Positions 11,831-55,056 of a stretch of 64,000 nt of DNA are shown in pieces. Each line of letters starts with the position of its first letter. Positions within the stretch are counted from its first letter, which is position 1. The translations under genes and the position numbers were made by a program. The notes below the pieces were generated by a model. It did no database searches and was not told the DNA's origin. It saw nothing but the letters and a program-made list of their open reading frames with translations. This DNA comes from Catellatospora paridis. GTDB lineage: Bacteria; Actinomycetota; Actinomycetes; Mycobacteriales; Micromonosporaceae. Location of the stretch: NCBI RefSeq assembly GCF_009720365.1, contig NZ_ML769315.1, forward strand, positions 341,621-405,620. Direction: 5' to 3'.

Positions 11831-11967
11831 ACCCTCTATGAGGGCTGACCTGCGGAAGAAGAGATGCCGCGGGTAGTTTCACGGGACCTGCGGGCAGCTC
11901 CGGGGCAGCAGGCAACCCCCTCGGTCGGCCGAGTGGTAGTACCGGCGACCGACACCCTGGAGGACCG

Positions 11968-12462
11968 GTGACGCACAGCGACACCTTCGCGGAGTTCGTG
12001 GCGACCCGCTCGCCACGGCTGCTCCGCACCGCCTACCTGCTCACCCACGACTGGGGACAGGCGGAGGACCTGCTGCAGACCAGCCTGGTCAAGGCATGGA
12101 GCGCGTGGCGGCGCATCGACGCCGACCCCGAGCCGTACGTGCGCCGCATCCTCGTCAACACGTATGCCACCTGGTGGCGGCGGCGCTGGCGGGGTGAACA
12201 GCCCACGGAGGTGCTGCCGGAACCGGCGGGCAGCGATCCGCACCTGGGCGTCGACGCTCGCGACGAGGTGTGGCGGGCGCTGGGTCGGCTGCCCCGCCGC
12301 CAGCGGGCCGTGCTGGTGCTGCGGTATTTCGAGGACCTCAGCGAGGCGCAGATCGCCGAGGCGATGGGGGTGTCCGTCGGCACCGTGAAGAGCCAGGCCG
12401 CCAAGGCGCTGGCCCGCCTGCGCCTGGACGAGTCGCTCACGATCGAGGGGGCCTTCGCATGA
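11968..12462 (+). CDS. SigE-family ECF RNA polymerase sigma factor
   Basis: 164 aa. Region 2 at about 5-75 (DTFAEFVATRSPRLLRTAYLL, then AEDLLQTSLVKAWSAWRRI) and region 4 at about 100-155 (LPRRQRAVLVLRYFEDLSEA and helix-turn-helix MGVSVGTVKSQAAKAL). It starts at GTG with GGAGG five bases upstream. It overlaps the next gene by ATGA, so sigma and membrane partner are made together. Its N-terminal two-thirds is clearly paralogous to the four fused proteins at 47.7-53.7 kb, but this copy ends after region 4. The regulon is unknown. Confidence 0.95.
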   Translation: MTHSDTFAEFVATRSPRLLRTAYLLTHDWGQAEDLLQTSLVKAWSAWRRIDADPEPYVRRILVNTYATWWRRRWRGEQPTEVLPEPAGSDPHLGVDARDEVWRALGRLPRRQRAVLVLRYFEDLSEAQIAEAMGVSVGTVKSQAAKALARLRLDESLTIEGAFA

Positions 12463-13529
12463 TCGACCTGAAGGAGCTGCTGGACGACCGGTCCGGCCCG
12501 CCCGCCGGGCTCGACCAGCACCTGCGGCTGGACGAGGTGCAGGGCCGGATCGCGACGCGCCGCCGCCGCCGGATGACCGTCGGCGGCGCGCTCGCCGCGG
12601 TGGTCGCGCTGGTCCTCATCGGGTACGGCGTGACGCCCGCCCTGCGCAGCGCGCCCCAGCCCGCGGTCACACCGAGCCCACTGCCCCGCCTCATCGAGGG
12701 CTTCCCCGAGTACGCCAACGGCGCCCGTGTCGTGGCCGCCGCGACGTCCGCCCCCGAGGCGACCTCGGTGACGATCACCTTCACCCCCACCACGACGGAC
12801 CTGCGGATCTTCGAGCGGTGCGGCCCGGCCACGACCGATGGGGCACTGGAGTACAAACTCACCATCAACGGACACGATTACGGCGGCGGCACCTGCAACG
12901 GGTCCAGCAGCCTCTACTGGCCGGATCATCCGGACGCAGCGGCAAGACTCGGCATCGAGGTCGGCAGACCCGTCACCGTCACGATGACCGCGAAGGCCAT
13001 GGTGATCTGGGGTGACGGGGCGGGCCGCAAGACGGAGAGCCGCCCGGTGCCCCCGACCGCCTGGCTGAGCGTCGCCGCCGGCGAGCACCTGCCGTTCGCC
13101 GACTATCCGCTGCCCCCGCGACCTGCCACCCTCAGCCCGGTCGAGTTCACCGACAGTCTGTCTATGGGCGGAGTGGAGCATGCGCCCGACGAGGAGCACC
13201 TGTGGCTGCGCAGCGACCCCGCCGACCCGCTGCGCCCGATGAGCGTCACCATCGTCTGGCAGGACCGCTACGACCTGCGGCTGCGGTCGCAGACCCCGGG
13301 AACGCTGCGCCTCGCGCTCAACGGCGTCGAGGTGGACTCCAGGTCGTGGTGGGACTTCGAAGCCAACGTGATCAACACCTACTGGCAGACCGGGACGTTC
13401 CGGCCGTACTCCTGGGTGACCGGCTTCACGACCCCCGCCCCAGGCTCGCTGGTCACGCTCACCGTCACCCCGCACGACGTCACCGGAGCCTGGGTCATCC
13501 GGGTCATCCCCGGCAAGGAGACCGCCTGA
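12459..13529 (+). CDS. Membrane-anchored partner of the SigE-family sigma factor (candidate anti-sigma/sensor)
   Basis: 356 aa. Short cytoplasmic segment 1-38 ending in RRRRR, one membrane helix at about 39-58, then a long extracytoplasmic domain. No zinc-finger anti-sigma motif is visible. The extracellular part shares landmarks with the C-terminal halves of the fused sigma proteins at 47.7-53.7 kb: HLPFADYPLPPRPATLSP (210-227), SQTPGTLRLALNGVEVDS followed by WWDF, and a final DVTGAWVIRVIP. The cytoplasmic segment aligns loosely with their juxtamembrane linker. Four-nt overlap with the sigma gene supports a regulator role. A role in sensing cell-envelope signals is inferred. Confidence 0.75.
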   Translation: MIDLKELLDDRSGPPAGLDQHLRLDEVQGRIATRRRRRMTVGGALAAVVALVLIGYGVTPALRSAPQPAVTPSPLPRLIEGFPEYANGARVVAAATSAPEATSVTITFTPTTTDLRIFERCGPATTDGALEYKLTINGHDYGGGTCNGSSSLYWPDHPDAAARLGIEVGRPVTVTMTAKAMVIWGDGAGRKTESRPVPPTAWLSVAAGEHLPFADYPLPPRPATLSPVEFTDSLSMGGVEHAPDEEHLWLRSDPADPLRPMSVTIVWQDRYDLRLRSQTPGTLRLALNGVEVDSRSWWDFEANVINTYWQTGTFRPYSWVTGFTTPAPGSLVTLTVTPHDVTGAWVIRVIPGKETA

Positions 13530-22252: not shown

Positions 22253-24046
22253 TCACAGGTCGAGGGCCAGTTCGGAGGTCGGTTCGGAGCAGCAGATCAG
22301 CAGGTTGCCGTCGCCGGGCTCCTCGACGGGCTCGGGCGAGTACGCCACCTGCCCGGACAGCAGGCCGCTCACGCAGGTGTGGCACACCCCGGTCCGGCAG
22401 GACCAGCGCACCGGCACGTCGCACGCCTCGGCGAACTCCAGCAGGCTGGCATAGGCCGGGCTCCACGGCACGGTCAGCCCGCTGCGGACGAACGACACCG
22501 CCGGACCCGGTCCGGGCGCGCCGTCCGGCGGATGCGGCGGCGGAGCGGGCGCGGCGGCGATGCCGGGGGTCAGGCCGCCCTGCGCGCCGAACAGCTCGCT
22601 GTGCACCTGCGCGGGGCCCAGCCCCAGCTCACCGAGAGCGGCGGTGATCTCTCCCATGAACTCCGTCGGGCCGCACAGGTAGGCGGCCGTGTCCGGGGGC
22701 AGGTTCAGCCCGCGCAGCACCTCCGGAGTGATCCGTCCGGCGGTGGTGTAGTCGCGGTCCTCCGGGCCTGGTCGGCTGTAGCAGATGTACGCGTGCGCGT
22801 GCGGCAGCCGTCCCAGCAGCTCACGGCTCTCCGCCGCGAAGGCGTGCTCGGCGCCGTCCCGCGCGCCGTGCACCCACCACACCGCCCGGTCCGGCTGCGT
22901 CACGGCGAGAGCGTGCAGCATGGCCATCACCGGCGTCGCCCCGATCCCCGCCGACAGCAGCAGCACGGGCTGATCGCCGGGATCCAGGGTGAACGAGCCC
23001 CGCGGCGCGGCCGCCTCCACGGTCAGACCGGGCCGGGCGTTGGCGCGCAGGTATGTCCCGGCCGCGCCGTGCGGCTCCTGCTTCACGCTGATCCGGTACA
23101 CCGCGTCCCCGGGCGTGCCCGACAGCGAATAGCTGCGGATGAGCGGCCCGGCCTCGCCGGGCAGCCGCAGCGTCAGGAACTGGCCGGGCAGCGCCGCGGG
23201 CAGCGGGGTCCCGTCGGCGGCGGCCAGGTGCAGCGAGAAGACGTCGCGGGTCTCCTCGTCGAGCGCGGTGACGGTCAGCGGGCGAAACCCGGCCCAGGCG
23301 GGCGGGGCCGCGGCCGTCTCCAGGCCCGCATTGCCCTCCTGCCCGTCGGCCTGGTCCAGCAGCCCCTGCATCGAGGCCTGCCAGCCCGGGCTGAGCGCGG
23401 GGATCCGCAGCGCCCGCGCGGCGTCGTCGCGGGCGTGGCCCGGCAGGTAGAGCAGGGCGTCGAGTTCGGCGACGGTCATCGCCTCGGGTCCGGTGGACAG
23501 CTTCACGATCTCGTCACCGGCCCGCACCAGGCCCTCGGTCAGCACCCGCAGGTAGAAGCCGGGCCGGTGGTGGGCGACCATCAGCGCCGCCATGCTCGGC
23601 TCGTTGAGCCGCATCCCCACCCGGTAGCAGGTCACCCGCGGCTGCGTGACCTCCACGACGGCCTCGCCCACGCGGTAGCGGTCGCCGATGCACACCTCGT
23701 CGTCGGGCAGCCCGTCGACGGTGAAGTTCTCGCCGAACTGGCCCGGCACGAAGTCGTCGCGGCTCAGCACCTGCTGCCAGTAGCGGTAGGAATCCTGCTG
23801 GTACACCAGCACCGCGCGCTGCTCGCCGCCGTGCCCGCCGAGGTCGCCCTGGCCGTCGCCGTCGAGGTTGAGGCGGCGCAGCATCACCGGGCCGTCCACC
23901 GGCTGTTTCCACACCCCGGTGTGCACCGTCCGCCCGCGCCAGTCGACGTCCTTGGGCAGGCCTACGCTCACCGCCAGTAGGGTGGCCACCCGTCCGAAAC
24001 TACGCGCGACGGATACGCCCGGCAGTGCTTTGCCGATCTCGGTCAT
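22253..24046 (-). CDS. MOSC domain / FAD-NAD(P) reductase / [2Fe-2S] ferredoxin fusion
   Basis: 597 aa. The N-terminal MOSC domain (about 20-225) is the sulfur/molybdenum-cofactor-handling fold and keeps the conserved TCYRVGMRL cysteine. The middle (about 265-490) is a ferredoxin-reductase module with the FAD motif RSYSLSG and NAD site LLSAGIGATPVMAML. The C-terminal 85 residues are a plant-type ferredoxin with the cluster cysteines in SCRTGVCHTC and a final CC. It resembles YiiM-like MOSC proteins joined to a class-I oxidoreductase, perhaps reducing N-hydroxylated or molybdenum-linked substrates. Start ATG 24046; the much longer open frame upstream is not coding. Confidence 0.88.
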   Translation of the reverse strand: MTEIGKALPGVSVARSFGRVATLLAVSVGLPKDVDWRGRTVHTGVWKQPVDGPVMLRRLNLDGDGQGDLGGHGGEQRAVLVYQQDSYRYWQQVLSRDDFVPGQFGENFTVDGLPDDEVCIGDRYRVGEAVVEVTQPRVTCYRVGMRLNEPSMAALMVAHHRPGFYLRVLTEGLVRAGDEIVKLSTGPEAMTVAELDALLYLPGHARDDAARALRIPALSPGWQASMQGLLDQADGQEGNAGLETAAAPPAWAGFRPLTVTALDEETRDVFSLHLAAADGTPLPAALPGQFLTLRLPGEAGPLIRSYSLSGTPGDAVYRISVKQEPHGAAGTYLRANARPGLTVEAAAPRGSFTLDPGDQPVLLLSAGIGATPVMAMLHALAVTQPDRAVWWVHGARDGAEHAFAAESRELLGRLPHAHAYICYSRPGPEDRDYTTAGRITPEVLRGLNLPPDTAAYLCGPTEFMGEITAALGELGLGPAQVHSELFGAQGGLTPGIAAAPAPPPHPPDGAPGPGPAVSFVRSGLTVPWSPAYASLLEFAEACDVPVRWSCRTGVCHTCVSGLLSGQVAYSPEPVEEPGDGNLLICCSEPTSELALDL

Positions 24047-24146
24047 GCCGCCGCACCGGCCGCCCGCCGCGTTTCGCCGGTGGCGTGCGCTACTGCCCGG
24101 ACGCGGCCCCGTTGGGCGTTCCGGCCGGGCGTTTACGATGCCGACC

Positions 24147-24773
24147 ATGGCACTTCTGTACCGCGCGGACATCCGGCCGACCAAGCTCGAACTGATCGAC
24201 TCGTGGCTGCCCACCCGTTCCTGGTACCAGGGACCGGCGGAGCCCGGCGTGCACCGGGTGGCCGCGTGCCGCTTCGACGACCCCGACGGCGCGGTCGGCG
24301 TCGAGACGATCCTGGTCCAGGCCGGCGACGGCCCGCTGCTGCACGTTCCGCTCACCTACCGCGGCGCACCGCTGCCCGGTGGGGAGCCGTGGCTCGTCGG
24401 CACGACCGAGCACTCCGTGCTCGGCAAGCGCTGGGTGTACGACGCCACCGGCGACCCGGTCTACCTCCAGGCGCTCGCCACCGCGATCCTCACCGGCGGC
24501 GGCGAGGCCGAGGAGTTCGTCGACGTCGACGGTCGCCAGGAGAAGCGGGCCCCGGCCATGTCGCTGCGCGGCGGCGGCACCCCGGGCACCGCGATCCCCG
24601 TCGTCGGCGCGATCGAGCAGACCACCGACGCCGACCCGACCCGCATCGTCACCACCACTGTCGAACTGACCGTGCACCGCGTGCTCGGCTCCGCCGGCGG
24701 CGGTGCGCTCGTGCTGAGCGGCACCTGGGGCGGCGGCTCGCCGTCAGTCCTGGCCCAGGCGGCGCTGCGCTGA
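24147..24773 (+). CDS. Maltokinase N-terminal cap-like domain protein (stand-alone)
   Basis: 208 aa. The opening MALLYRADIRPTKLELIDSW resembles the N-terminal cap of actinobacterial maltokinases, which is normally followed by a kinase domain that is absent here. Gly-rich C-terminus, no signal peptide or membrane helix. Stand-alone cap-like proteins are known in actinobacteria without an assigned activity. ATG 24138, three codons earlier, is an alternative start. No glycogen or trehalose gene is nearby. Confidence 0.7.
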   Translation: MALLYRADIRPTKLELIDSWLPTRSWYQGPAEPGVHRVAACRFDDPDGAVGVETILVQAGDGPLLHVPLTYRGAPLPGGEPWLVGTTEHSVLGKRWVYDATGDPVYLQALATAILTGGGEAEEFVDVDGRQEKRAPAMSLRGGGTPGTAIPVVGAIEQTTDADPTRIVTTTVELTVHRVLGSAGGGALVLSGTWGGGSPSVLAQAALR

Positions 24774-43700: not shown

Positions 43701-45065
43701 TCACCCGGCCAGGTGTCCGAAGGCGTACGCGCGCCAGGGCCGCCACCGCTCGGCCGGCTCGCCGTGCGGCCCGGTCCCCGGCCAGGCGTCGGGATCGCCG
43801 AGGGCGCGCATCGCGATGAACTCCACGGTGGACTCGTCCAGTCCGGGCAGTTCCCGCAGCCGCTGCCGGGCCACCGCCCAGTCGGCGCCGACACCGAGGT
43901 CCAGCGCATCCGCGACGACCGCCGCGACGAGCGCGAGGAACGCCTTCTCGGCCCGCTCCGGGACCTCCAGCACCGCGGGGTCGGCTGCGGCCAGTGCGGA
44001 CACGTCGGGGAACACCTGGGTCAGGCCGCCGTCCGGGTCGTCGATCGGTTCGCCGTACGCCGTCACGAGCCGTGCCGCCGCGTCCGGCCCCAGCACCGCG
44101 CGCACCGCCAGCTCGACCCCGTCCACGGCCCGCGGCACCCGCCGCCCTGGCACGGCCGCGACCAGCGGCGCGAGCAGCGGGTCGGCGGCCAGCGCCGCGT
44201 CCACGGCGACCGGGTCGGCGTCCAGGTCGAGCAGCCACCGGCAGCGGTTCACGGCGCTGCCGAGGTCGCGCAGGTCGGCCAGGGACAGCCGGCACTCGAC
44301 GTGCCCGGCGGCGGGACGCAGCGCGACGACGCCGGTGCCGTGAGGCAGTCGCAGGGTGCGCCGCAGCGCCCCGTCGCGCCACTCCTCCACCCCGGGCAGC
44401 GCGTCCGCGGACAGCTGCGCGAACAGCTCGTCGGCGGCCAGCGGCGCCCGGTACGGCAGGCGGACCGTGACGGTGCCCGGCGCGGCCTGTGCCCGCGCCC
44501 CGCGACCGGCCCGTTCGCGCAGCTCGCCGGGGGTCAGCCCGAACACCTCGCGGACGGTGTCGTTGAAGGTGCGGATGCTGCCGAACCCCGCCGCGAACGC
44601 GATGTCGCCCATGGGCAGGGTGCTGGTCTCGATCAGGGTGCGGGCCGCCTGGGCGCGCTGCGCGCGGGCGACCGCCAGCGGGCCCGCGCCCAGTTCGGCG
44701 AGCACGTGCCGCTGCACCTGCCGGGTGCTGTAGCCGAGCCGGTGGGCCAGGCCGGGCACGCCCTCCCGGTCGACGACCCCGTCGGCGATGAGCCGGACCG
44801 CGCGGCCCACCAGGTCGGCGCGCGCGTTCCACTGCGGCGAGCCGGGGCTGGCGTCGGGGCGGCACCGTTTGCAGGCCCGGAACCCGGCCTGCTGGGCCGC
44901 GGCGGCGCTGGGCAGGAAGGTCATGTGCCGCACCTGCGGCGGCGGCACCGGGCAGCTGGGCCGGCAGTAGATGCGCGTACTGGTCACGGCCGTGAAGAAC
45001 CAGCCGTCGAAGCGGGCGTCGCGGGAGTGCACCGCTCGGACGCAGCGTTCGAAGTCCTCGTACAT
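43701..45065 (-). CDS. Ada-AlkA fusion: methylphosphotriester sensor / AraC HTH / 3-methyladenine glycosylase
   Basis: 454 aa adaptive-response protein. N-terminal Ada zinc domain with Cys34, Cys38, Cys65, Cys68 (YCRPSC and CKRC); Cys34 is the expected methyl acceptor. AraC-type helix-turn-helix about 85-185. AlkA-like N-domain about 195-290 and HhH-GPD domain to the end, with hairpin LRELPGLDESTVEFIAMRAL and catalytic Asp in GDPDAWPG. It both senses alkylation and excises 3-methyladenine. No O6-methylguanine transferase is adjacent. Confidence 0.95.
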   Translation of the reverse strand: MYEDFERCVRAVHSRDARFDGWFFTAVTSTRIYCRPSCPVPPPQVRHMTFLPSAAAAQQAGFRACKRCRPDASPGSPQWNARADLVGRAVRLIADGVVDREGVPGLAHRLGYSTRQVQRHVLAELGAGPLAVARAQRAQAARTLIETSTLPMGDIAFAAGFGSIRTFNDTVREVFGLTPGELRERAGRGARAQAAPGTVTVRLPYRAPLAADELFAQLSADALPGVEEWRDGALRRTLRLPHGTGVVALRPAAGHVECRLSLADLRDLGSAVNRCRWLLDLDADPVAVDAALAADPLLAPLVAAVPGRRVPRAVDGVELAVRAVLGPDAAARLVTAYGEPIDDPDGGLTQVFPDVSALAAADPAVLEVPERAEKAFLALVAAVVADALDLGVGADWAVARQRLRELPGLDESTVEFIAMRALGDPDAWPGTGPHGEPAERWRPWRAYAFGHLAG

Positions 45066-45985: not shown

Positions 45986-47209
45986 TCACCGCGCCAGCAG
46001 CAGGGTGGCGGTCCCGGCGGCCAGCGCGGCGGCCCCGGTGACCGCCCCCGTCGCCGCGAACCTGCCCCAGCCGATGCGCACCCCGGCGGCCTGGCAGCGC
46101 TGCGCCCACAGCAGCGTGGCCAGCGACGCCCACGCGGTGACCAGCGGGGCGACGTTCGCCCCGAGCAGCAGGCCGAGCAGCTGGTCGCGGTGTCCGGCGG
46201 CGACCACGGCCTCGCCCGCCACGTACGCGGGCAGATTGTTGACGGCGTTGGCGAGCAGCCCGCTGGTGACGGCCGCCCGCACGACGCCCACCGCGCCGGG
46301 GTCGACGCCGATCATGGCACTCATCAGGTCGGCCAGGCCTAGCCGCCCGACCGCCTCGACGGTCAGGAACAGGCCGGTGACCAGCACGAGCAGCCGCCAC
46401 GGCAGCAGGCTCCAGCGCAGCGCGGCCCGGTCCCAGCGGGCGTACGCGGCGACCAGGACCAGCGCGCAGACCGCCGACACCAGTTCCAGCCGCTCGCCCC
46501 ACAGCACGCCGACCAGGAACACCGTGCAGGCGGCGGCCGCGGCCAGCAGCAGCCGGCGGTCGCGCGGCCGCATCGGCGCGGGCGGGGTGTACCGGGCCGG
46601 GTTGCCACGCCAGTAGAAGATCCACAGGCAGCCGCCGACCGCGACCAGCACCGCCGCCTGCGGCAGGACCATCGCCCCGGCGAACCCGCCCACCGACAGC
46701 CCGATCCGGTCCGCGGCCAGCAGGTTCGTCAGGTTCGACACCGGCAGCAGCAGGCTCGCGCCGTTGGCCAGCCAGATCGTCGTCATCGCCAGGGGCAGCG
46801 GCGGCACGCCGGCCCTCGCCGCCATGGCCAGCATCACCGGGGTGAGCAGCACCGCCGTCGTGTCGAGGTTGAGCAGCACGGTGGTCGCCGCGGCGAAGGC
46901 GAAGCACAGCGCGAACAGCGCGACGTTGCGCCCGCGCGCCCAGCCGGTCAGCCGCGTGGCGATCACGTCGAACAGCTCGGCCCGCGCGGCGAGCTCCGCC
47001 AGCACGATCACCGTGCCCAGGAAGATCAGGATGGGCAGGATGCGGCGGCCGCTCGCCAGCGCGCCGGCGGGCGGCACCAGCCGGGTCGCCACCGCGAGCA
47101 GCCCCGCGCCGAGCAGCGCGAACGCGAGCAGGTCGAGCCCGCTGAACCTGTTCCGGGCACGCGTGGGCCCGGTCCCGGCGGCCTCCGCCGGGACGACTGC
47201 CTGTGCCAT
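45986..47209 (-). CDS. ArsB/NhaD-type ion transporter
   Basis: 407 aa, about 10-12 hydrophobic segments with few charged loops. LNLDTTAVLLTPVMLAMAARAG and GLLANAVNNLPAYVAGEAVV are the paired re-entrant motifs of the ArsB/CitM ion-transporter superfamily. Start ATG 47209 follows the ArsC-like stop by 1 nt, so the two are surely cotranscribed, suggesting arsenite or another oxyanion export. No ArsR gene is adjacent. Confidence 0.85.
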   Translation of the reverse strand: MAQAVVPAEAAGTGPTRARNRFSGLDLLAFALLGAGLLAVATRLVPPAGALASGRRILPILIFLGTVIVLAELAARAELFDVIATRLTGWARGRNVALFALCFAFAAATTVLLNLDTTAVLLTPVMLAMAARAGVPPLPLAMTTIWLANGASLLLPVSNLTNLLAADRIGLSVGGFAGAMVLPQAAVLVAVGGCLWIFYWRGNPARYTPPAPMRPRDRRLLLAAAAACTVFLVGVLWGERLELVSAVCALVLVAAYARWDRAALRWSLLPWRLLVLVTGLFLTVEAVGRLGLADLMSAMIGVDPGAVGVVRAAVTSGLLANAVNNLPAYVAGEAVVAAGHRDQLLGLLLGANVAPLVTAWASLATLLWAQRCQAAGVRIGWGRFAATGAVTGAAALAAGTATLLLAR

Positions 47210-47210
47210 G

Positions 47211-47600
47211 TCAGTCGGTGGTCGGGGTGGAGAGGGCCTGCGCCAGTGCCTCGGGGGTGCGCGCCACGATCGCGGTTCCGTCGTCGAGCAGCAGGATCGG
47301 GCGCTGGATGAGCTGCGGATAAGCCACCATCGCCGCGATCCAGCGGGGGCGGTCGACCGCGTCCCGGCTCCAGTCCGCCAATCCCAGCTCGGCGGCGGCC
47401 GGCTCGCCCAGCCGGCAGATCTCCCACGGCTGCGCGCCAAGCCGGTCGAGCACGTCGGCCAGCTCGGCGGCGGTCGGCGGCGCGTCCAGATACGGCCGCA
47501 GCGTCACCGGCACCTGGTTGAGCTCGAACGTCTCCCGGGCGGTGGCGCACTTCGAGCACGAGGGGTTGTTCCACATCTCCACCCCGCTATCCTCACCCAT
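47211..47600 (-). CDS. arsC: ArsC/Spx-family arsenate reductase-like protein
   Basis: 129 aa thioredoxin-fold protein of the glutaredoxin-coupled ArsC family. NNPSCSKCATARE (Cys15, Cys18) is the active-site strand-helix; LGEPA and QRPILLLDDGTAIVARTPE match the family C-terminus with its Arg residues. ATG 47600 is used; GTG 47582 gives the family-typical VEMWNNPSCSKC start and may be real. Reduces arsenate for export by the downstream transporter, if the pairing is functional. Confidence 0.85.
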   Translation of the reverse strand: MGEDSGVEMWNNPSCSKCATARETFELNQVPVTLRPYLDAPPTAAELADVLDRLGAQPWEICRLGEPAAAELGLADWSRDAVDRPRWIAAMVAYPQLIQRPILLLDDGTAIVARTPEALAQALSTPTTD

Positions 47601-47646
47601 CCCCGGATCTGCTCGGACATCGGTTCAACCTGACCCGCCGGTCAGG

Positions 47647-47679
47647 CGGTACCAGTTGCTGACCGGGACGATCAGGAGG
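47647..47679 (+). promoter_or_regulatory. Conserved 33-nt leader upstream of tethered sigma gene 1
   Basis: Begins CGGTA and ends GACGATCAGGAGG; aligns without gaps to the leaders at 50722-50754 and 52255-52287. AGGAGG is the ribosome site. The rest may hold a shared promoter or RNA element, or simply reflect duplication. Confidence 0.5.
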
Positions 47680-47687
47680 CGACGGGG

Positions 47688-49169
47688 ATGGCCGAGACGG
47701 CGACGTTCGACGAGTTCGTGGTGACGCGGTCGCGGCACCTGCTGCGGGTGGCGTTCCTGCTCACCGGTGACCACGCGCTGGCCGAGGACCTGCTGCAGAC
47801 CGCCCTGGCCCGCTCCTGGCCGGCCTGGCGGCGGATCGACGGCGACCCCGAGCCGTACGTACGCCGGGTGCTGGCCAACACGTACAACTCCTGGTGGCGG
47901 CGGCGGTGGCACGGCGAGCGCCCCACCGAGACGCTGCCCGAGCACCCCGCGCCCTCGGCGCACACCGCCGTCGACGACCGCGACCAGCTCCGCCGAGCCC
48001 TGGCCAGGCTCCCCCGGCAGCAGAAGGTCGTCCTGGTCCTGCGCTACTTCGAGGATCTCAGCGAGGCGGAGATCGCCCGGACCCTCGGCATCTCCGCGGG
48101 CTCGGTGAAGACGCACGCATCGAAGGGGCTGGCGAAGCTGCGGCTGGACCCGAGCCTGCGGGAGCTGCCGCAGCCCGACGACGACGGGCCGGTGGGCAAC
48201 GACCGGCTGTCCGCGGTGCGCACCCGGATCGCCGGGAACCGCCGCCGAAGCGTCGCCGGGGTCGCGACGGCCTGCCTGGTCGCGCTGGCACTGATCGCCG
48301 CGTACGCGCTGCTGCCGCACCTGCGCGCACGGGCGCTGCCGGAGCCCGCGTTCCCGATCGAGGTGCCGCAGTTCGCACAGAGCAGCCCGGCGTTCGCCGA
48401 CGTCGACTACTACCGCCTGACCGCCTCCGCCCAGCACGGCTACACGCCCCACCTGGACCCCGCGCTCACCTGGACACCCAGCGGCCGCCCGGAGGCGCTG
48501 TTCATCGGCTGCCGGCACCTGGGGGAGCACAAAGTGCTCACCGCACGCGTCAGCGTGAACGGGTGGCGGCCGGCGGGCACGGGCATGGACACCTGCACCG
48601 GCGACACCGACATGGGCTTCGACGGCTTCTTCACCGCGCTGGACCCGGCGGCACTGGGCCTGGTGGCGGGCCGTCCCGCCACCGTGACGTTGGACCTCGA
48701 ATTCGGGCAGAACGGTGACGATCCGCTGCCTGAGGGCACCGTCGCCGTCGCGATCGGTGAACCCGCGTCCTACGCGGAGCTCCCCTGGCCGGGCACGGCC
48801 CCGTCCCGCGCGCCGCTGGATCGGACGCCGCAGGACGCCGTCGACCCGGCCACGGTGACCATGCTGGAGTCCGGGGGCGCGCACAGCACCACGCTCACGT
48901 GGACCGGTCCGCTGGTGTTGTCGGCGAACGCGCAGACACCCGGCCGGTTGCGCATCCTCGTCGACGGCGCGCTGGCGACCAACCTGGACTTCGGCACGCC
49001 CTTCCTGCAGCTGGAACACGGCAGCCGCGCCGTGCTCGACCCCGCGGGCCGCTACGGCTACGGCTTCCGCTTCGCGCCGCGCCCCGGCTCGAAGATCACG
49101 ATCACGGTCGTGCCCGAACGCCTGGTCGGCGACTGGTACGTGGCGATCTATCCCCAGCAGCACAGCTGA
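47688..49169 (+). CDS. Membrane-tethered SigE-family sigma factor, array copy 1
   Basis: 493 aa. Sigma region 2 at about 7-75 (FDEFVVTRSRHLLRVAFLL, AEDLLQTALARSWPAWRRI), region 4 at about 104-155 (LPRQQKVVLVLRYFEDLSEA, LGISAGSVKTHASKGLAKL), linker 156-186, membrane helix 187-209 (SVAGVATACLVALALIAAYAL), then 280 extracytoplasmic residues. The C-terminal part keeps AQTPGRLRILVDGALATN and LVGDWYVAIYP but lacks the WWDY motif of the other copies, making it the most divergent. Compare the separate sigma and partner genes at 11968-13529. How the sigma domain acts while membrane-bound, or is released by proteolysis, is unknown. Confidence 0.9.
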   Translation: MAETATFDEFVVTRSRHLLRVAFLLTGDHALAEDLLQTALARSWPAWRRIDGDPEPYVRRVLANTYNSWWRRRWHGERPTETLPEHPAPSAHTAVDDRDQLRRALARLPRQQKVVLVLRYFEDLSEAEIARTLGISAGSVKTHASKGLAKLRLDPSLRELPQPDDDGPVGNDRLSAVRTRIAGNRRRSVAGVATACLVALALIAAYALLPHLRARALPEPAFPIEVPQFAQSSPAFADVDYYRLTASAQHGYTPHLDPALTWTPSGRPEALFIGCRHLGEHKVLTARVSVNGWRPAGTGMDTCTGDTDMGFDGFFTALDPAALGLVAGRPATVTLDLEFGQNGDDPLPEGTVAVAIGEPASYAELPWPGTAPSRAPLDRTPQDAVDPATVTMLESGGAHSTTLTWTGPLVLSANAQTPGRLRILVDGALATNLDFGTPFLQLEHGSRAVLDPAGRYGYGFRFAPRPGSKITITVVPERLVGDWYVAIYPQQHS

Positions 49170-49265
49170 CCGCGGCACGCCAGAATCTTGCGCATCGCGC
49201 GCAACCCCGGCGGCGGCCCAGGTCGTACAGGATCTCGACACCGCAGACGGAAAGGCACGGGGAGT

Positions 49266-50669
49266 ATGGCCGACACGGCGACGTTCGACGAGTTCGTGAC
49301 GGTGCGCTCGCGCCACCTGCTGCGCATCGCGTACCTGCTCTCGGGCGATCACATCCTCGCCGAGGACCTGCTGCAGACCGCGCTGGCCAAGTCGTGGACG
49401 GCGTGGAAGCGGATCCAGGGCGACCCCGAGCCGTACGTGCGCCGCGTGCTGGTCAACACGTACAACTCATGGTGGCGGCGGCGCTGGCACGGCGAGCGGC
49501 CCACCGAGACGCTGCCCGAGCACGCCGGGCCGTCGCCGCACAGCGCGGTCGACGAGCGCGACCAGCTGTGGCGCGCACTGGACCGGCTGCCCCGCCAGCA
49601 GCGCGTGGTGCTCGTGCTGCGGTACTTCGAGGACCTCACCGAGGCGGAGATCGCGCGGACCATGGACATCTCAGCGGGCGCGGTGAAGGCGTACGCCTCC
49701 CGGGGCCTGGCCACCCTGCGCCTGGACCCCTCGCTGCGCGCACTGCCGCAGCCCGACGACGACGCGCCGGTGGGCAACGAGCGGCTGGTCGCGGTCCAGC
49801 GGCGGATCATCCAGCGCCGCCGCACCCGGCTGTCCGCGGCGGCCGCGGCCTGCCTGATCGTCATCGCCGCGATCTCGGGTTACGCGCTCGCGCCCGGCCC
49901 GGATCGCGGCGACGTCGCCGACCTGCCCGAGCTCTACCGCGGGCACCGCATCGTGGCCCGGCTGCAGGCGAACTTCTCCCAGGGCACGGCGGAGCTGGTG
50001 TGGACACCGGGCAGCACCGACGTGACCCTGTTCCCGGCCTGCGCCACCGGCCTGCTGCCCGCCGAGGTCGAGCTGAGCGTCAACGGCGCCTACATCGCGA
50101 CGGTCACCTGCGGCACCCGGATGGAGTTCACCCTGGCCCGCACCATGAACGCGCGCACCGCGGCGGCCCGCAACCTGCGCGTCGGCGAGCCTGCCCGGAT
50201 CACGCTGAGCGCCGTCGGCGCGGCGGTCGACACCCGGCAGCGGACCGCCGACGACGGCGTGATGGCGGTCGCCGTCGCCGAGCGGCTGCCGTTCGACGAG
50301 TACCCGCTGCCGTCGCGACCGGCGAGCCTGGACCCGCTGCCGAGTCCCGACGCGAAACCGGGACGGATCCGGCTCTACGGCCCCGAGGCCCAGGTCACCA
50401 CGGTGGAGTGGCGCGGCTCGCTGACGTTGCGGGCCCGGGCGCAGACCCCGGGCAGCCTGCTCGTCTCCGTCAACGGCATCGCGGTGGAGAACTTCGGGTG
50501 GTGGGACTACCAGCAGGACAACCGGGCCGGTTTCCTGGACGTCGACACGACCGACGCGGCGCGGCTGGGACTGCCCGCCCTCGTCACCGGCCAGACCGTG
50601 GTCATCACCGTGGAGCCCGAGTTCATGACGGGCGACTGGTGGCTCACCGTCGACCAGCCCGGCACGTAA
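49266..50669 (+). CDS. Membrane-tethered SigE-family sigma factor, array copy 2
   Basis: 467 aa. Region 2 (FDEFVTVRSRHLLRIAYLLS, AEDLLQTALAKSWTAWKRI), region 4 (LPRQQRVVLVLRYFEDLTEA, MDISAGAVKAYASRGLATL), juxtamembrane RRIIQRRRTR, helix about 188-206 (AAAACLIVIAAISGYALA). Extracytoplasmic landmarks: RLPFDEYPLPSRPASLDP, AQTPGSLLVSVNGIAVEN plus WWDY, and FMTGDWWLTVDQ. ATG 49266 follows GGGGAG; the longer frame to 49188 is unsupported. Its leader is less similar to those of copies 1, 3 and 4. Confidence 0.9.
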   Translation: MADTATFDEFVTVRSRHLLRIAYLLSGDHILAEDLLQTALAKSWTAWKRIQGDPEPYVRRVLVNTYNSWWRRRWHGERPTETLPEHAGPSPHSAVDERDQLWRALDRLPRQQRVVLVLRYFEDLTEAEIARTMDISAGAVKAYASRGLATLRLDPSLRALPQPDDDAPVGNERLVAVQRRIIQRRRTRLSAAAAACLIVIAAISGYALAPGPDRGDVADLPELYRGHRIVARLQANFSQGTAELVWTPGSTDVTLFPACATGLLPAEVELSVNGAYIATVTCGTRMEFTLARTMNARTAAARNLRVGEPARITLSAVGAAVDTRQRTADDGVMAVAVAERLPFDEYPLPSRPASLDPLPSPDAKPGRIRLYGPEAQVTTVEWRGSLTLRARAQTPGSLLVSVNGIAVENFGWWDYQQDNRAGFLDVDTTDAARLGLPALVTGQTVVITVEPEFMTGDWWLTVDQPGT

Positions 50670-50721
50670 CCTACGGACGAGATTTTCTCGCGACACCACC
50701 CCACCGACGCCGCCGTCCAAC

Positions 50722-50754
50722 CGGTACGTGTTGCTGACGGCGGCGATCAGGAGG
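50722..50754 (+). promoter_or_regulatory. Conserved 33-nt leader upstream of tethered sigma gene 3
   Basis: CGGTA...GCGATCAGGAGG, same length and largely the same bases as the leaders of copies 1 and 4. Confidence 0.5.
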
Positions 50755-50764
50755 CTTGCGGAGC

Positions 50765-52204
50765 ATGGCCGGCACGGCGGAGTTCGACGAGTTCGTGATG
50801 GCGCGATCGCGGCACCTGCTGCGTATCGCGTACCTGCTCACCGGCGACCACGCGCTGGCCGAGGACCTGCTGCAGACCGCGTTGGTCAAGTCGTGGGCGG
50901 CGTGGCGGCGCATCCACGGCGACCCGGAACCGTACGTGCGGCAGGTGTTGCTCAACACGTACCGCTCCTGGTGGCGCCGCCGGTGGAACGGCGAGCGCCC
51001 CGCCGAGTCGCTGCCCGAGCAGCCGATCGCGGCGCCGCAGGCGGCCGTCGACGAGCGCGACGAGGTGTGGCGGGCCCTCGGCCGGCTGTCCCGCCAGCAG
51101 CGGGTCGTGCTGGTGCTGCGCTACTTCGAGGACCTCAGCGAGGCCGAGATCGCCAAGGCGCTGGACATCTCGCCGGGCTCGGTGAAGAGCTACGCCGCCA
51201 AGGGATTGGCCCGGCTGCGGCTCGACCCCGACCTGCAGCCGATGCCCGCGATCGACGAGGACGCCCCGGCCGGCAACGAGCGCCTGGCGGGCGTACGCCG
51301 GCGCATCGTGCAGCAGCGCCGCGGCCGGCTCGCCTCCGCCGCGGCGGCGCTCGCGGTGGTCCTGGCCGGCATCACCGGTTACGTCATCGCGCCCGGCCGC
51401 GAGACCGACGGGCTGGCCGGCGTGCCCGACTTCCACCAGGGCTACCGCATCACCGAACGCGCGCAGGCCACCTTCGCCGAGGAGACCGGCGAGATCACGT
51501 TCACCCCGTCCACTCTCGACCTGGCGTTCTTCCCCGCCTGCACGCACTCCGGGTACGAGGTGCCGCTCGAGGTCAGGGTGTGGGTCGGCGGCAACTCGCT
51601 CGGTGCGGTGGACTGCCAGACCGGCGGCCTGTCCTTCGACAGCCGGGTCACCGCCGCCGCGGACACCCTGCGCGCCGCCGGCGTCGAGGTGGGCAAGCCG
51701 GTCACGGTCACCTTCGCACTGGACGTGGCGTACGTCTATACGGGTTCCTCGACCCCGCTCACCGAACCGAAGTCCGAGGTGCCCGCGGACGGTGTGCTCG
51801 CGCTCCTCGTCGGCGAGTCGGCCGGGTTCGACACCGTCGACCTGCCCGAGCGGCCGGCGACCCTCACGCCGCTGGACCGGCCCGCGTACGCGACGGGCAC
51901 CAGCGTGCTGCTCACCGCGGACGGCCCGCGCACCGCCACGCTCGACTGGCGCAGCGGCGCGGTGCGCATCATGGCCCGCTCGCAGACGCCGGGCGTGCTG
52001 CGGTTGCGCATCAACGGCGTGCTCGTCGACGTCAAGACCTGGTGGGACTACGACCAGCAGACGTGGCAGTCGGAGTTCGCGCCCGCCGGTGACGACGCGA
52101 AGGCGCGCGGGCTGAGCGCCCAGTATCCGGATCAGCTCACCATCACCGTCGAGCCCGAACACCTGACCGGCGACTGGTGGCTGGCGGTGATGCCCGCGGG
52201 CTGA
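50765..52204 (+). CDS. Membrane-tethered SigE-family sigma factor, array copy 3
   Basis: 479 aa. Region 2 (FDEFVMARSRHLLRIAYLLT, AEDLLQTALVKSWAAWRRI), region 4 (LSRQQRVVLVLRYFEDLSEA, LDISPGSVKSYAAKGLARL), RRRIVQQRRGR before a helix at about 184-204 (ASAAAALAVVLAGITGYVIA). Extracytoplasmic domain with SQTPGVLRLRINGVLVDV, TWWDYDQ and HLTGDWWLAVMP. A stretch of roughly 75 bp in region 2 is identical to copy 4, indicating recent duplication or gene conversion. ATG 50765 chosen; a TTG three codons earlier is less likely. Confidence 0.9.
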   Translation: MAGTAEFDEFVMARSRHLLRIAYLLTGDHALAEDLLQTALVKSWAAWRRIHGDPEPYVRQVLLNTYRSWWRRRWNGERPAESLPEQPIAAPQAAVDERDEVWRALGRLSRQQRVVLVLRYFEDLSEAEIAKALDISPGSVKSYAAKGLARLRLDPDLQPMPAIDEDAPAGNERLAGVRRRIVQQRRGRLASAAAALAVVLAGITGYVIAPGRETDGLAGVPDFHQGYRITERAQATFAEETGEITFTPSTLDLAFFPACTHSGYEVPLEVRVWVGGNSLGAVDCQTGGLSFDSRVTAAADTLRAAGVEVGKPVTVTFALDVAYVYTGSSTPLTEPKSEVPADGVLALLVGESAGFDTVDLPERPATLTPLDRPAYATGTSVLLTADGPRTATLDWRSGAVRIMARSQTPGVLRLRINGVLVDVKTWWDYDQQTWQSEFAPAGDDAKARGLSAQYPDQLTITVEPEHLTGDWWLAVMPAG

Positions 52205-52254
52205 CCTCGGGCAGAATCACTGCGCCATCGTGTCAACCGGCGCGCCGGCCCGCC

Positions 52255-52287
52255 CGGTAGGAGTAGCCGACCGGGACGATCAGGAGG
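52255..52287 (+). promoter_or_regulatory. Conserved 33-nt leader upstream of tethered sigma gene 4
   Basis: CGGTAGGAGTAGCCGACCGG then GACGATCAGGAGG; the last 19 nt are identical to the end of the copy-1 leader. Confidence 0.5.
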
Positions 52288-52296
52288 CGCACGGGG

Positions 52297-53739
52297 ATGG
52301 CCGGCACGGCGGAGTTCGACGAGTTCGTCACCATGCGATCGCGGCACCTGCTGCGTATCGCGTACCTGCTCACCGGCGACCACGCGCTGGCCGAGGACCT
52401 GCTGCAGACCGCGCTGGCCCGGTCCTGGTCGGCGTGGCGGCGCATCCACGGCAACCCGGAGCCGTACGTGCGGCGGGTGCTGGCCAACACGTACAACTCC
52501 TGGTGGCGCCGCCGCTGGCACGGCGAGCGACCCACCGAGACACTGCCCGAGCGCCCTGCGCCCTCGCCGCACACCGCCGTCGACGACCGCGACGAGGTCT
52601 GGCGGGCCCTGTCGAAGCTGCCCCGGCAGCAGAAACTGGTGCTGGTGCTGCGCTATTTCGAGGACCTCAGCGAAGCCGAGATCGCGCAGACCCTGGGCAT
52701 CTCCCCCGGCTCGGTGAAGACGCACACCTCCCGTGCGCTGGCCAGCCTGCGCCTGGACCCGGGGCTGCGCACCCTGCCGCTGCCCGCGGACGACGACGTG
52801 CCCGCGGGCAACGAGCGGCTCACCGCGGTCCGGGGGCGCATCACGCAGCGCCGCCGCAACCGGATCGCGGCCGCGTTCCTGGCGCTCGCCTCCGCCACCG
52901 CCGGGTACCTGCTGGCCGCGCCGGCCGTGCCCTACGACGTGGCCGACTTCCCCGAATTCGATGACGGTCAGCACATCGTCCTGCGGGGGCAGGCGACCTT
53001 CGGCGACGCCCCGGCCGGTTTCCGGTGGACTCCGACGAAGCTCGACGGCAAGGTCCAGGTGGCCTGCGCGCATACGGAGAAGGAGCTAAGCCTTTACGTC
53101 TCCGTCTTGATCAACGGCAAAAAGATCTACGGAACCGGCTGCGACACCGACGGCGAGATCGGGTTCTCGGGCAGCGCCCGGCTCACCGAGACCTCGCTGC
53201 GCAGCGCCGGAGTCTCGATCGGCAGGCCGGCCACCGTCACGCTGATCGTCGAGGAACCGTCGACCTTCCTGGAGGACCCCGCTCCGAGCGGCCCGTACGC
53301 CGCCCCGGGCGGCACCGTGCCCGCCGACGGCGTCATGGTGGTCGTGCTCGGCGAGTCGGTGCCGTTCGACGAGTACCCGCTGCCCGCCCGGCCGGACGAG
53401 CTGGAGACGCTGTCCCGCCCCAGTTCGGCCTGGCTCGTCGGCTCGGTGCTGGTCGAAGCCGCCGGCCCGCACACCGTCACCATGCCGTGGCGCGGCGGGC
53501 CGCTGCAGGTGGCCGGCCTGTCGCAGACACCTGGGATCATGCGCATCAAGGTCAACGGCCGGCTGGTCGACACGAAGACCTGGTGGAACTACACGCTGGT
53601 GGAGCGGATCGCCGAGGTGAGCGCGGAGAGCCTGGCGGAGCTGGGAGTGGACCCCCTGCTCAACGAACCGGTCACCATCACGGTGGAGACGGAGCACATG
53701 ACCGGCGACTGGTGGCTGCGCGTCTCCCCACCGAGCTGA
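52297..53739 (+). CDS. Membrane-tethered SigE-family sigma factor, array copy 4
   Basis: 480 aa. Region 2 (FDEFVTMRSRHLLRIAYLLT, AEDLLQTALARSWSAWRRI), region 4 (LPRQQKLVLVLRYFEDLSEA, LGISPGSVKTHTSRALASL), RGRITQRRRNR, helix about 188-207 (IAAAFLALASATAGYLLA). Extracytoplasmic domain carries two Cys (VACAHTEK, GTGCDTDG), SVPFDEYPLPARPDELET, SQTPGIMRIKVNGRLVDT plus TWWNY, and HMTGDWWLRVSP. The first 90 residues are nearly the same as copy 3, whereas the extracellular domains diverge, as expected if they sense different signals. Confidence 0.9.
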   Translation: MAGTAEFDEFVTMRSRHLLRIAYLLTGDHALAEDLLQTALARSWSAWRRIHGNPEPYVRRVLANTYNSWWRRRWHGERPTETLPERPAPSPHTAVDDRDEVWRALSKLPRQQKLVLVLRYFEDLSEAEIAQTLGISPGSVKTHTSRALASLRLDPGLRTLPLPADDDVPAGNERLTAVRGRITQRRRNRIAAAFLALASATAGYLLAAPAVPYDVADFPEFDDGQHIVLRGQATFGDAPAGFRWTPTKLDGKVQVACAHTEKELSLYVSVLINGKKIYGTGCDTDGEIGFSGSARLTETSLRSAGVSIGRPATVTLIVEEPSTFLEDPAPSGPYAAPGGTVPADGVMVVVLGESVPFDEYPLPARPDELETLSRPSSAWLVGSVLVEAAGPHTVTMPWRGGPLQVAGLSQTPGIMRIKVNGRLVDTKTWWNYTLVERIAEVSAESLAELGVDPLLNEPVTITVETEHMTGDWWLRVSPPS

Positions 53740-53860: not shown

Positions 53861-54289
53861 GTGGCGGAGCAGTCGGACTGGCGCGCGCAGCGCGATCATG
53901 CGGTGGCGCAGCATGCGCTGGCCGAGCAGCGCCGCCGGGCGGCCGAGACGGCGCAGGCGATGGAGCTGGTGACCCGGTTCGCCCGCGAGGCGGCCGCGCG
54001 CGGCCTGCGCACCACGGCGCTGACGGCGTTCGCCTACGACGGCGGCGGCCGCTACCGCACCGACCTGCGCGGCTGGTACGTGCACCGCAACCACACCCTC
54101 GCGATCACCGAGGACGGCCGCTACTACGTGCTCGGCGTGCCGTCGTCGCTGCGGGCGCGCCTGCGCGGCGCGCAGGTGCCGCCCGCCGACCCGCCGCTGA
54201 TCGTCGGCCGGGGCGCGCGCGACGGTGAGTCGATGCCGCTGGCGACGCTGCTGCAGCGCCGCCTGGACGCGGGCGACGACTGGCCCTAG
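53861..54289 (+). CDS. Hypothetical protein, 142 aa
   Basis: Soluble. An Ala/Arg/Gln-rich N-terminal helix (about 5-50), then a compact domain with GRYRTDLRGWYVHRNHTLAI and EDGRYYVLGVPSSLRARLRG. No catalytic motif or family recognised. GTG start. Its stop overlaps the stop of the convergent next gene (CTAG shared). Confidence 0.6.
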   Translation: MAEQSDWRAQRDHAVAQHALAEQRRRAAETAQAMELVTRFAREAAARGLRTTALTAFAYDGGGRYRTDLRGWYVHRNHTLAITEDGRYYVLGVPSSLRARLRGAQVPPADPPLIVGRGARDGESMPLATLLQRRLDAGDDWP

Positions 54290-55056
54290 CCCGCCTGCTC
54301 GGCCAGGGCGAACTCCAGCTGTTCCACGGCCATCCGCACCCCGTCGTCGAGGGCATCCCGGTATTGGTGCTCCAACGACCAGGGCACGGCCTGGTGCGGT
54401 CGGTGGCCGAGCAGGGTGAGGCGCAGCGGCCCGACCCGTTCCTCGTGCTTGTCCAGGGCGGCGTGCGCGGCCGCGACCGCGAGGTCGGGAATCCGCGCCA
54501 GGTCCGCCGCATCCAGCCGGGGTGCGTTGACGCCGGCGGCAAAATCCTCGGCGAGCACGACGGCCCGCTCGGCGGCGGGCGTGACCTCGACGAAGACCTC
54601 GGCGTCCGTGACGCCGACCTCGGGGTCGACCGGGTTGGCCAGCCGCACCACGGGACCGGCCGGAGTGAACGTGACCCAGTCGCACACCATGCGGTGCGGG
54701 AGCTGGTCGATCGCGGCCCGCACCGCCCGGGACGCGGCTGCCTGCACGGCCCCGTAGCCGGAGTCGACGATGTGCAGGTAGTGCTTGACCAGCACCACGC
54801 GCAGCGGCCCGGTGCGGTACTCGTACCGCATGAGCGCCGAGCGCACGCCCCGCAGCGCGCCGGTGGTCAGCTCCGCCACCCACTGCTCGTTGGCGAGTTC
54901 CTCGCGCATGTACTCGTCGTCGCGGTCGCGGTCACGCAGGTCGATGAAATCGTCGGCGACGTGGATGCTGCGCTCGGCGGCCGGTTCGACGTCGAGCGTG
55001 ACCTTCACCCCGGCGAAGCAGCTGCCGGTCATGGTCCTGTTCGTCACCCGCACCAT
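54286..55056 (-). CDS. Hypothetical protein with two tandem related domains
   Basis: 256 aa, no signal or membrane helix. Residues about 18-125 and 148-252 appear homologous: each begins with a strand of type VTLDVEPAAERSIHVADDF / VFVEVTPAAERAVVLAEDF, and continues to RTGPLRVVLVKHYLH / RVGPLRLTLLGHRPH and a final amphipathic helix. The fold slightly recalls EF-G domain IV but I do not assign it. Function unknown. Start ATG 55056. Confidence 0.65.
   Translation of the reverse strand: MVRVTNRTMTGSCFAGVKVTLDVEPAAERSIHVADDFIDLRDRDRDDEYMREELANEQWVAELTTGALRGVRSALMRYEYRTGPLRVVLVKHYLHIVDSGYGAVQAAASRAVRAAIDQLPHRMVCDWVTFTPAGPVVRLANPVDPEVGVTDAEVFVEVTPAAERAVVLAEDFAAGVNAPRLDAADLARIPDLAVAAAHAALDKHEERVGPLRLTLLGHRPHQAVPWSLEHQYRDALDDGVRMAVEQLEFALAEQAG

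Follow-up and report, generated by a model that had tools for sequence, protein, structure and literature searches.

How could a bacterium come to carry, one after the other, four sigma factors that are each joined in one piece to a membrane helix and a large extracellular domain, and do such proteins serve four separate pathways or one? This question is raised by an array of four genes in a 64,000-nucleotide stretch of the Catellatospora paridis genome (contig NZ_ML769315.1, positions 341,621 to 405,620), which was analysed as a whole and is referred to here as the window. The explanation that we favour, with a probability of about 0.6 that also covers the mode of action and the common output proposed below, is that the four genes encode one-piece transmembrane signalling sigma factors, that this form arose by one fusion of a sigma factor gene of the extracytoplasmic function (ECF) type with an overlapping gene for a short membrane partner, and that duplication after the fusion built the array.

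The four open reading frames (ORFs; copies 1 to 4 in Table 1) are intact, have the same orientation, and occupy window positions 47688–53739 with intergenic gaps of 96, 95, and 92 nt; the start of copy 2 was set by homology to the ATG at 49266, the choice of the ORF list having been the TTG at 49188. In a Pfam scan, sigma-70 regions 2 and 4 were above cut-off in all four copies, and residues ~3–156 of each match the SigE family TIGR02983 with 187.9–195.6 bits, which exceeds the cut-off of 141.55 by 46–54 bits; a TPR_12 row within the sigma part of copy 4 stayed below cut-off (E 0.67). In every copy, the sigma part is followed by an acidic, proline-containing linker (6–12 residues of Pro/Asp type), a basic helix, one hydrophobic helix, and an ectodomain of ~260 residues. 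The membrane helix that an earlier note on this DNA had placed at about residues 185–209 is found by hydropathy as one strong hydrophobic 19-mer per copy at residue 190 or 191 (Kyte–Doolittle 1.87–2.35), and residues 188–207 of copy 3 form a helix in its AlphaFold model, though with predicted local distance difference test (pLDDT) values below 50. The ectodomain of this copy was modelled with a mean pLDDT of 87. As the earlier note had also described, a QTPG strand and a final [TV]GDW[WY] are shared by all four copies; Pfam scans of the copies and of further members found no family for the ectodomain, and fold searches, with PA14- and CBM6-like carbohydrate-binding domains among the folds considered, gave middling matches only. 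At third codon positions, the content of guanine and cytosine (GC) is 0.94–0.97 throughout every copy, for the sigma half as well as for the membrane-plus-ectodomain half. The tandem arrangement of four sigma–membrane–ectodomain fusions that the note had read from the DNA is therefore real.

The unfused counterpart of these genes persists 36 kb away in the same window. With copy 4 as the query against its own genome (8.97 Mb, 35 contigs), 69 matches were obtained, including a stand-alone sigma gene at 11968–12462, and the ORF directly 3′ of it matches residues 169–478 of copy 4. This second ORF opens with ATGATC, and its ATGA overlaps the sigma stop codon TGA by four bases. The encoded ectodomain, which contains QTPG and two Cys and ends with GxW, is of the same kind as those of the copies, and the full-length members of this ectodomain family in the genome are five, namely the four copies and the split partner. 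The membrane partner is probably the anti-sigma factor of the split sigma factor.

Fused and split forms both recur in relatives. An ectodomain profile gave matches at 1e-5 in 37 of 150 genomes of the bacterial family (14 of 44 genera), and 60 fetched regions together with the window yielded 83 matching ORFs, 69 of them full-length: 42 fused, 23 split, and 4 ectodomain-only. These 69 come from 28 genomes, with the fused form in 17, the split form in 22, and both in 11. A careful sigma tree of 80 rows, comprising the 65 fused and split members and 15 SigE-type paralogues of the C. paridis genome, places 42 of 42 fused proteins on one side with a support of 98/93, and this division is present in 99% of 200 bootstrap trees, whereas the 23 split proteins form one side in 0% of them. 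The careful ectodomain tree (65 rows) has the same division with weaker support (84/90, 81% of the bootstraps), and a quick sigma tree with the paralogues as the outgroup shows the fused clade nested within the split pairs (inner supports 82–90). As the fused form makes up one sigma clade and the split form does not, the trees are best explained by an ancestral pair of sigma factor and membrane partner that was fused once within this protein family, the split form most likely being the older one.

This fusion was not the only one of its kind. Among the 15 other best SigE-type loci examined in the same genome, nine have a long extension with one transmembrane helix and outer parts unrelated to those of the array, and they occupy at least two other places in the quick sigma tree. 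Because these fusions sit elsewhere in the tree and have unrelated outer parts, we conclude that sigma–membrane fusion has arisen repeatedly among SigE-type factors. Three SigE-type fusions with unrelated outer parts also stand in a second tandem set of this genome (G000:C16:56675-60733; loci L010, L011, and L017), and two of the three have PD40 (beta-propeller) matches below the Pfam cut-off.

What did the fusion change? The split partners begin with a motif of the form M[IN]xL[KR]xLLDERS or similar, for which the strict pattern is found in 16 of 23 split partners and in 0 of 42 fused proteins; a relaxed pattern, L[RK]x[LVF][LMF]xx[RQ][SG], which was defined after the misses of the strict one were seen, is found in 22 of 23 and again in 0 of 42. 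Of the 23 split pairs, 19 have ATGA at the junction and 3 have GTGA, one of the latter (L057) being a broken sigma frame in a relative and no true junction. The basic juxtamembrane helix, RL..VR.RI..RRR, is retained in both forms, and the mean share of the top residue is highest in this helix (0.63), followed by the hinge (0.60), the transmembrane helix (0.51), and the outer domains (0.38 and 0.42). In the split partner of the window, motif segment and basic helix together make up the ~38–43 residues ahead of the membrane helix, i.e., inside the cell. Class I anti-sigma factors have an N-terminal four-helix domain of 101 ± 33 aa (PMC7406223), and class II factors such as CnrY have less than 50 aa inside the cell with two helices, the first on sigma4 and the last on sigma2 (PMC7406223; PMC4598750). 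The split partner is too short for class I and lies within the limit of class II, and its very short cytoplasmic part likens it to CnrY by size alone; the fused form, unlike CnrY, is without the first segment. By this analogy, the motif segment of the split partner may bind sigma4 and the basic helix may bind sigma2; in the fused form, a covalent bond to sigma would have taken the place of the former contact. Taken to its end, this leads to a bolder proposal that we make tentatively and with the odds somewhat against it: the array would represent an undescribed sub-family in which the fusion swapped the sigma4-binding N-terminal segment of a ~38-residue anti-sigma factor for a peptide bond to sigma4, and in which duplicated, divergent sensors drive one self-amplifying promoter.

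One-piece membrane ECF factors are a known kind of protein, and the earlier note was right that ECF groups with membrane extensions had been described (section 3.5.3 of PMC8999054). The actinobacterial groups ECF48, ECF52, and ECF53, for example SCO4117 (ECF52) of Streptomyces coelicolor, have a C-terminal fusion to one or more membrane helices; ECF52 has in addition a proline-rich stalk and a carbohydrate-binding domain outside, and factors of all three groups are expected to be freed by proteolysis (PMC8999054; PMC5826349). The array proteins resemble them in the C-terminal fusion of the sigma factor to a transmembrane helix, as judged by hydropathy and the low-confidence model helix, and to an outside part. 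In contrast, ECF48, ECF52, and ECF53 have a zinc-finger anti-sigma domain (Hx3Cx2C) between sigma and membrane that the array proteins lack: residues 156–190 of the four copies, the stretch of ~30 residues from region 4 to the membrane helix, contain no His or Cys, and the Pfam scan of the copies found no zinc-finger family. Because the zinc domain that marks those groups is missing, we set the array proteins, with their sigma part of the TIGR02983 family, apart from them, going by the description of the groups. In IutY (ECF243) of Pseudomonas putida, sigma factor, membrane helix, and outside part are likewise one protein, which is activated by intramembrane proteolysis; according to PMC8999054, fused membrane ECF factors are widely predicted, and the activation route has been shown for IutY only. 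IutY acts in iron signalling of the FecR type, which involves a receptor in the outer membrane, whereas the array proteins come from a Gram-positive host and have no FecR family match (Pfam, E 1, four copies). The closest parallel to a bank of sensors is SigI/RsgI of cellulosome-forming clostridia, a set of paralogous, autoregulated sigma/sensor systems with overlapping regulons, in which the inner parts are alike and the outer domains differ and bind polysaccharides, the tandem PA14 of RsgI3 binding pectin (PMC4711584; PMC12203970). These are two separate proteins, however, and SigI is not an ECF factor of the TIGR02983 family; none of the ectodomain-family members scanned had a PA14 match in Pfam. 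Our literature searches, which did not cover the ECF classification papers, found no description of this fused family, and we do not claim its absence from print. New here are the fusion without a zinc domain, the survival of the split ancestor, the loss of the motif, and the promoter type common to both forms. A single window shows a sigma factor and its probable anti-sigma partner both before and after their fusion, and leads to a directly testable claim on how a very short membrane partner can control a sigma factor and which of the contacts becomes dispensable upon fusion.

The shared promoter is recognised by a signature, CAACC-N16/17-[CG]GTA, which fused and split genes have in common. 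Of 50 non-redundant upstream regions, 36 contain it, mostly 29–38 nt before the start codon, compared with a mean of 0.12 (maximum 2) in 200 shuffles and 0 on the other strand. On both strands of the window, the strict signature has four sites, all of which precede copies 1, 2, or 4 or the split sigma gene (Table 1), and the one-base variant before copy 3 is retained in the orthologues listed. Several other fusions of this genome show a different form, AACC-N15/16-GCGT. The shared signature argues for autoregulation, and the occurrence of one promoter type before each of the four copies and before the split pair speaks for a single common output and against four separate pathways. As the copies also share a conserved sigma part and have divergent outer parts, the sequences suggest that the array has several inputs and one common output, that is, a natural sensor bank, which may help to find out what the surface sensors of actinobacteria respond to and may provide parts for synthetic one-component sensors. 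Under the bolder proposal above, the fused array and the ancestral two-protein system, which use the same promoter type, may be wired together. An identical 27-mer with the promoter pattern occurs in two species, each time before a short ORF (G000:C3:812104-812130 in C. paridis and G087:C12:18668-18694); the C. paridis site lies 44 nt before the GTG of its ORF, and such a site is a possible target outside the array.

Table 1. Genes of the array, genes of the split pair, and promoter-like sites, in window coordinates.
Feature	Position	Strand	Details
Split sigma gene	11968..12462	+	164 aa from a GTG start; 65% identity with the copy 4 sigma half
Split membrane partner	12459..13529	+	356 aa; N-terminal motif MIDLKELLDDRS, basic helix, transmembrane helix, homologous ectodomain
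Copy 1	47688..49169	+	493 aa; SigE-family ECF sigma, juxtamembrane basic helix, transmembrane helix, ectodomain
Copy 2	49266..50669	+	467 aa; architecture as copy 1
Copy 3	50765..52204	+	479 aa; architecture as copy 1; ectodomain modelled
Copy 4	52297..53739	+	480 aa; architecture as copy 1
Promoter-like CAACC-N17-GGTA	11913..11938	+	29 nt before split sigma gene
Promoter-like CAACC-N17-GGTA	47626..47651	+	36 nt before copy 1
Promoter-like CAACC-N17-CGTA	49202..49227	+	38 nt before copy 2
One-base variant CCACC-N17-GGTA	50701..50726	+	38 nt before copy 3; fails the strict pattern
Promoter-like CAACC-N17-GGTA	52234..52259	+	37 nt before copy 4

The two halves of the proteins differ in their degree of divergence. 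Between the copies, the ectodomains are 29–40% identical, in agreement with the divergence that the earlier note had claimed, and the sigma parts (alignment columns 1–157) are 75.2–84.7% identical, with copies 1 and 4 as the closest pair (84.7%). The general picture of one-piece membrane sigma proteins with similar sigma halves and divergent outer halves is thus supported, and the near-identity that had been stated for the sigma halves of copies 3 and 4 holds for their first 180 nt (92.2% DNA identity) but not for nt 181–471 (77.7%) or for the protein (77.7%). Gene conversion between the sigma halves was considered and is not supported for copies 1 to 3, as their orthologues in other species are closer (95–99%) than any array neighbour (≤84%). 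Copy 4 has no close orthologue in the sampled genomes (best ectodomain match 45%), and the 92% agreement of copies 3 and 4 over their opening 180 nt could reflect a local conversion. Among close relatives, the ectodomains of orthologues are conserved (72–92% identity); the closest loci in five named Catellatospora species have 65–92% identity in the copy 3 ectodomain.

As to how such a protein might work, we infer that the extension inhibits the sigma part and controls access to it, and that the ectodomain senses ligands. In the resting state, the basic juxtamembrane helix would lie on the sigma domains, and the sigma part would be held at the membrane and out of reach of RNA polymerase. Once the two-domain ectodomain detects a change of the envelope or a ligand, regulated intramembrane proteolysis would cut the protein within the membrane helix or close to it, and the freed sigma factor would start transcription at CAACC-N16/17-[CG]GTA promoters, the array's own first, resulting in a positive autoregulation. 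Release by proteolysis is proposed because of the analogy with IutY and the expectation for ECF48, ECF52, and ECF53.

Several observations weigh against this picture. In the AlphaFold model of copy 3, the sigma part has pLDDT values below 70 and the juxtamembrane part and most membrane residues have values below 50, and the model does not support a docking of the helix on sigma. A quick ectodomain tree that includes the four ectodomain-only proteins requires two changes of form and not one. Regarding the promoter, 14 of the 50 upstream regions lack the strict signature, and a scan of the C. paridis genome gave 36 sites, with 16 for the reversed pattern; of these 36, 30 were examined, and most lie in open frames or have no well-placed start, with no clean intergenic target among the 30 beyond two array sites ending in GTAC. 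Two relatives gave 28 versus 18 and 34 versus 18 sites without a clear common target, and a regulon beyond self-regulation was thus not found in the three genome scans. Furthermore, the site-2 proteases in the C. paridis genome are of little informative value, as they are also present in 14 of 14 control genomes.

Among the alternatives, one is that the extension acts as a positive cofactor which the sigma factor needs for activity, with control exerted mainly at the level of transcription via the shared promoter, and we consider this unlikely. Other extended ECF factors can be cited as a precedent; the extensions of ECF41 and ECF42 have regulatory roles other than simple inhibition. Of the SnoaL_2 or TPR extensions of those two groups, the Pfam scan of the four copies showed no SnoaL_2 match, and TPR only as the sub-cut-off row within the sigma part of copy 4. 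The cytoplasmic extension of ~30 residues is also far below the size of class I anti-sigma domains (101 ± 33 aa, PMC7406223), which would agree with a cofactor, but the split homologues have the usual sigma/anti-sigma layout of a free sigma factor beside a membrane partner, and it is difficult to see why a cofactor would have a membrane anchor.

Similarly unlikely is that the sigma factor works while tethered, with a ligand altering conformation or oligomerisation so that the membrane-bound protein recruits RNA polymerase, without any cleavage, to promoters located close to the membrane. ToxR- and CadC-type one-piece regulators act in the membrane-bound state. The layout of the array proteins is likewise one-piece, the flexible Pro/Asp linker could provide reach, and no recognisable site-1 cleavage motif turned up, albeit without a search aimed at one. 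However, sigma factors have to bind core polymerase and as a rule leave it after initiation, and IutY, the one characterised fused membrane ECF factor in the account of PMC8999054, is released by Prc and RseP. We consider it still less probable that partner and extension are a mere membrane anchor or a wall-binding tether that localises transcription or stores the sigma factor, with an ectodomain that senses nothing. The ectodomain, without a Pfam family or known ligand and with its middling fold matches, would permit this reading, but its divergence between copies and conservation in orthologues are as expected of separate specificities. A sequencing or assembly error, or pseudogenes whose halves are really separate genes, can be dismissed in spite of the broken copies that occur in relatives, because codon-position GC is normal in both halves and the fusion is kept in orthologues that are up to 92% identical in the ectodomain, and with 42 fused members in 17 genomes and the trees, the out-of-frame C-terminal halves that the earlier note had considered are excluded.

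The split form also turned up in a wider search. An order-level search of 298 genomes found at least 28 with a match, with misses likely as seven candidates per genome were scored; the full-length additions are nearly all in the same bacterial family, and 10 of the 10 full-length loci examined were split, six of them in genomes outside the first set. Broken or remnant array members are seen in C. coxensis (L062/L146), in C. bangladeshensis (L069/L149), and at locus L067, and judged by these, array copies are gained and lost in relatives. Ectodomain-only membrane proteins of the same protein family lie a few kb from a fused copy at L086:1135-2085:-, L100:5167-6111:+, and L101:5755-6711:+, and these sigma-less proteins are perhaps co-receptors or decoys.

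In the window, the array is flanked upstream by an ArsC-like gene and a gene for an ArsB/CitMHS-type transporter (45986–47600, minus strand), which are divergent from copy 1, and directly downstream by two ORFs, 53861–54289 (plus strand) and 54286–55056 (minus strand), without Pfam matches at E 0.001. Two further minus-strand genes of the window each encode several domains in one protein: Ada metal-binding, AraC-type helix-turn-helix, and AlkA N-terminal domains at 43701–45065, and MOSC, YiiM, FAD/NAD-binding, and 2Fe-2S domains at 22253–24355.

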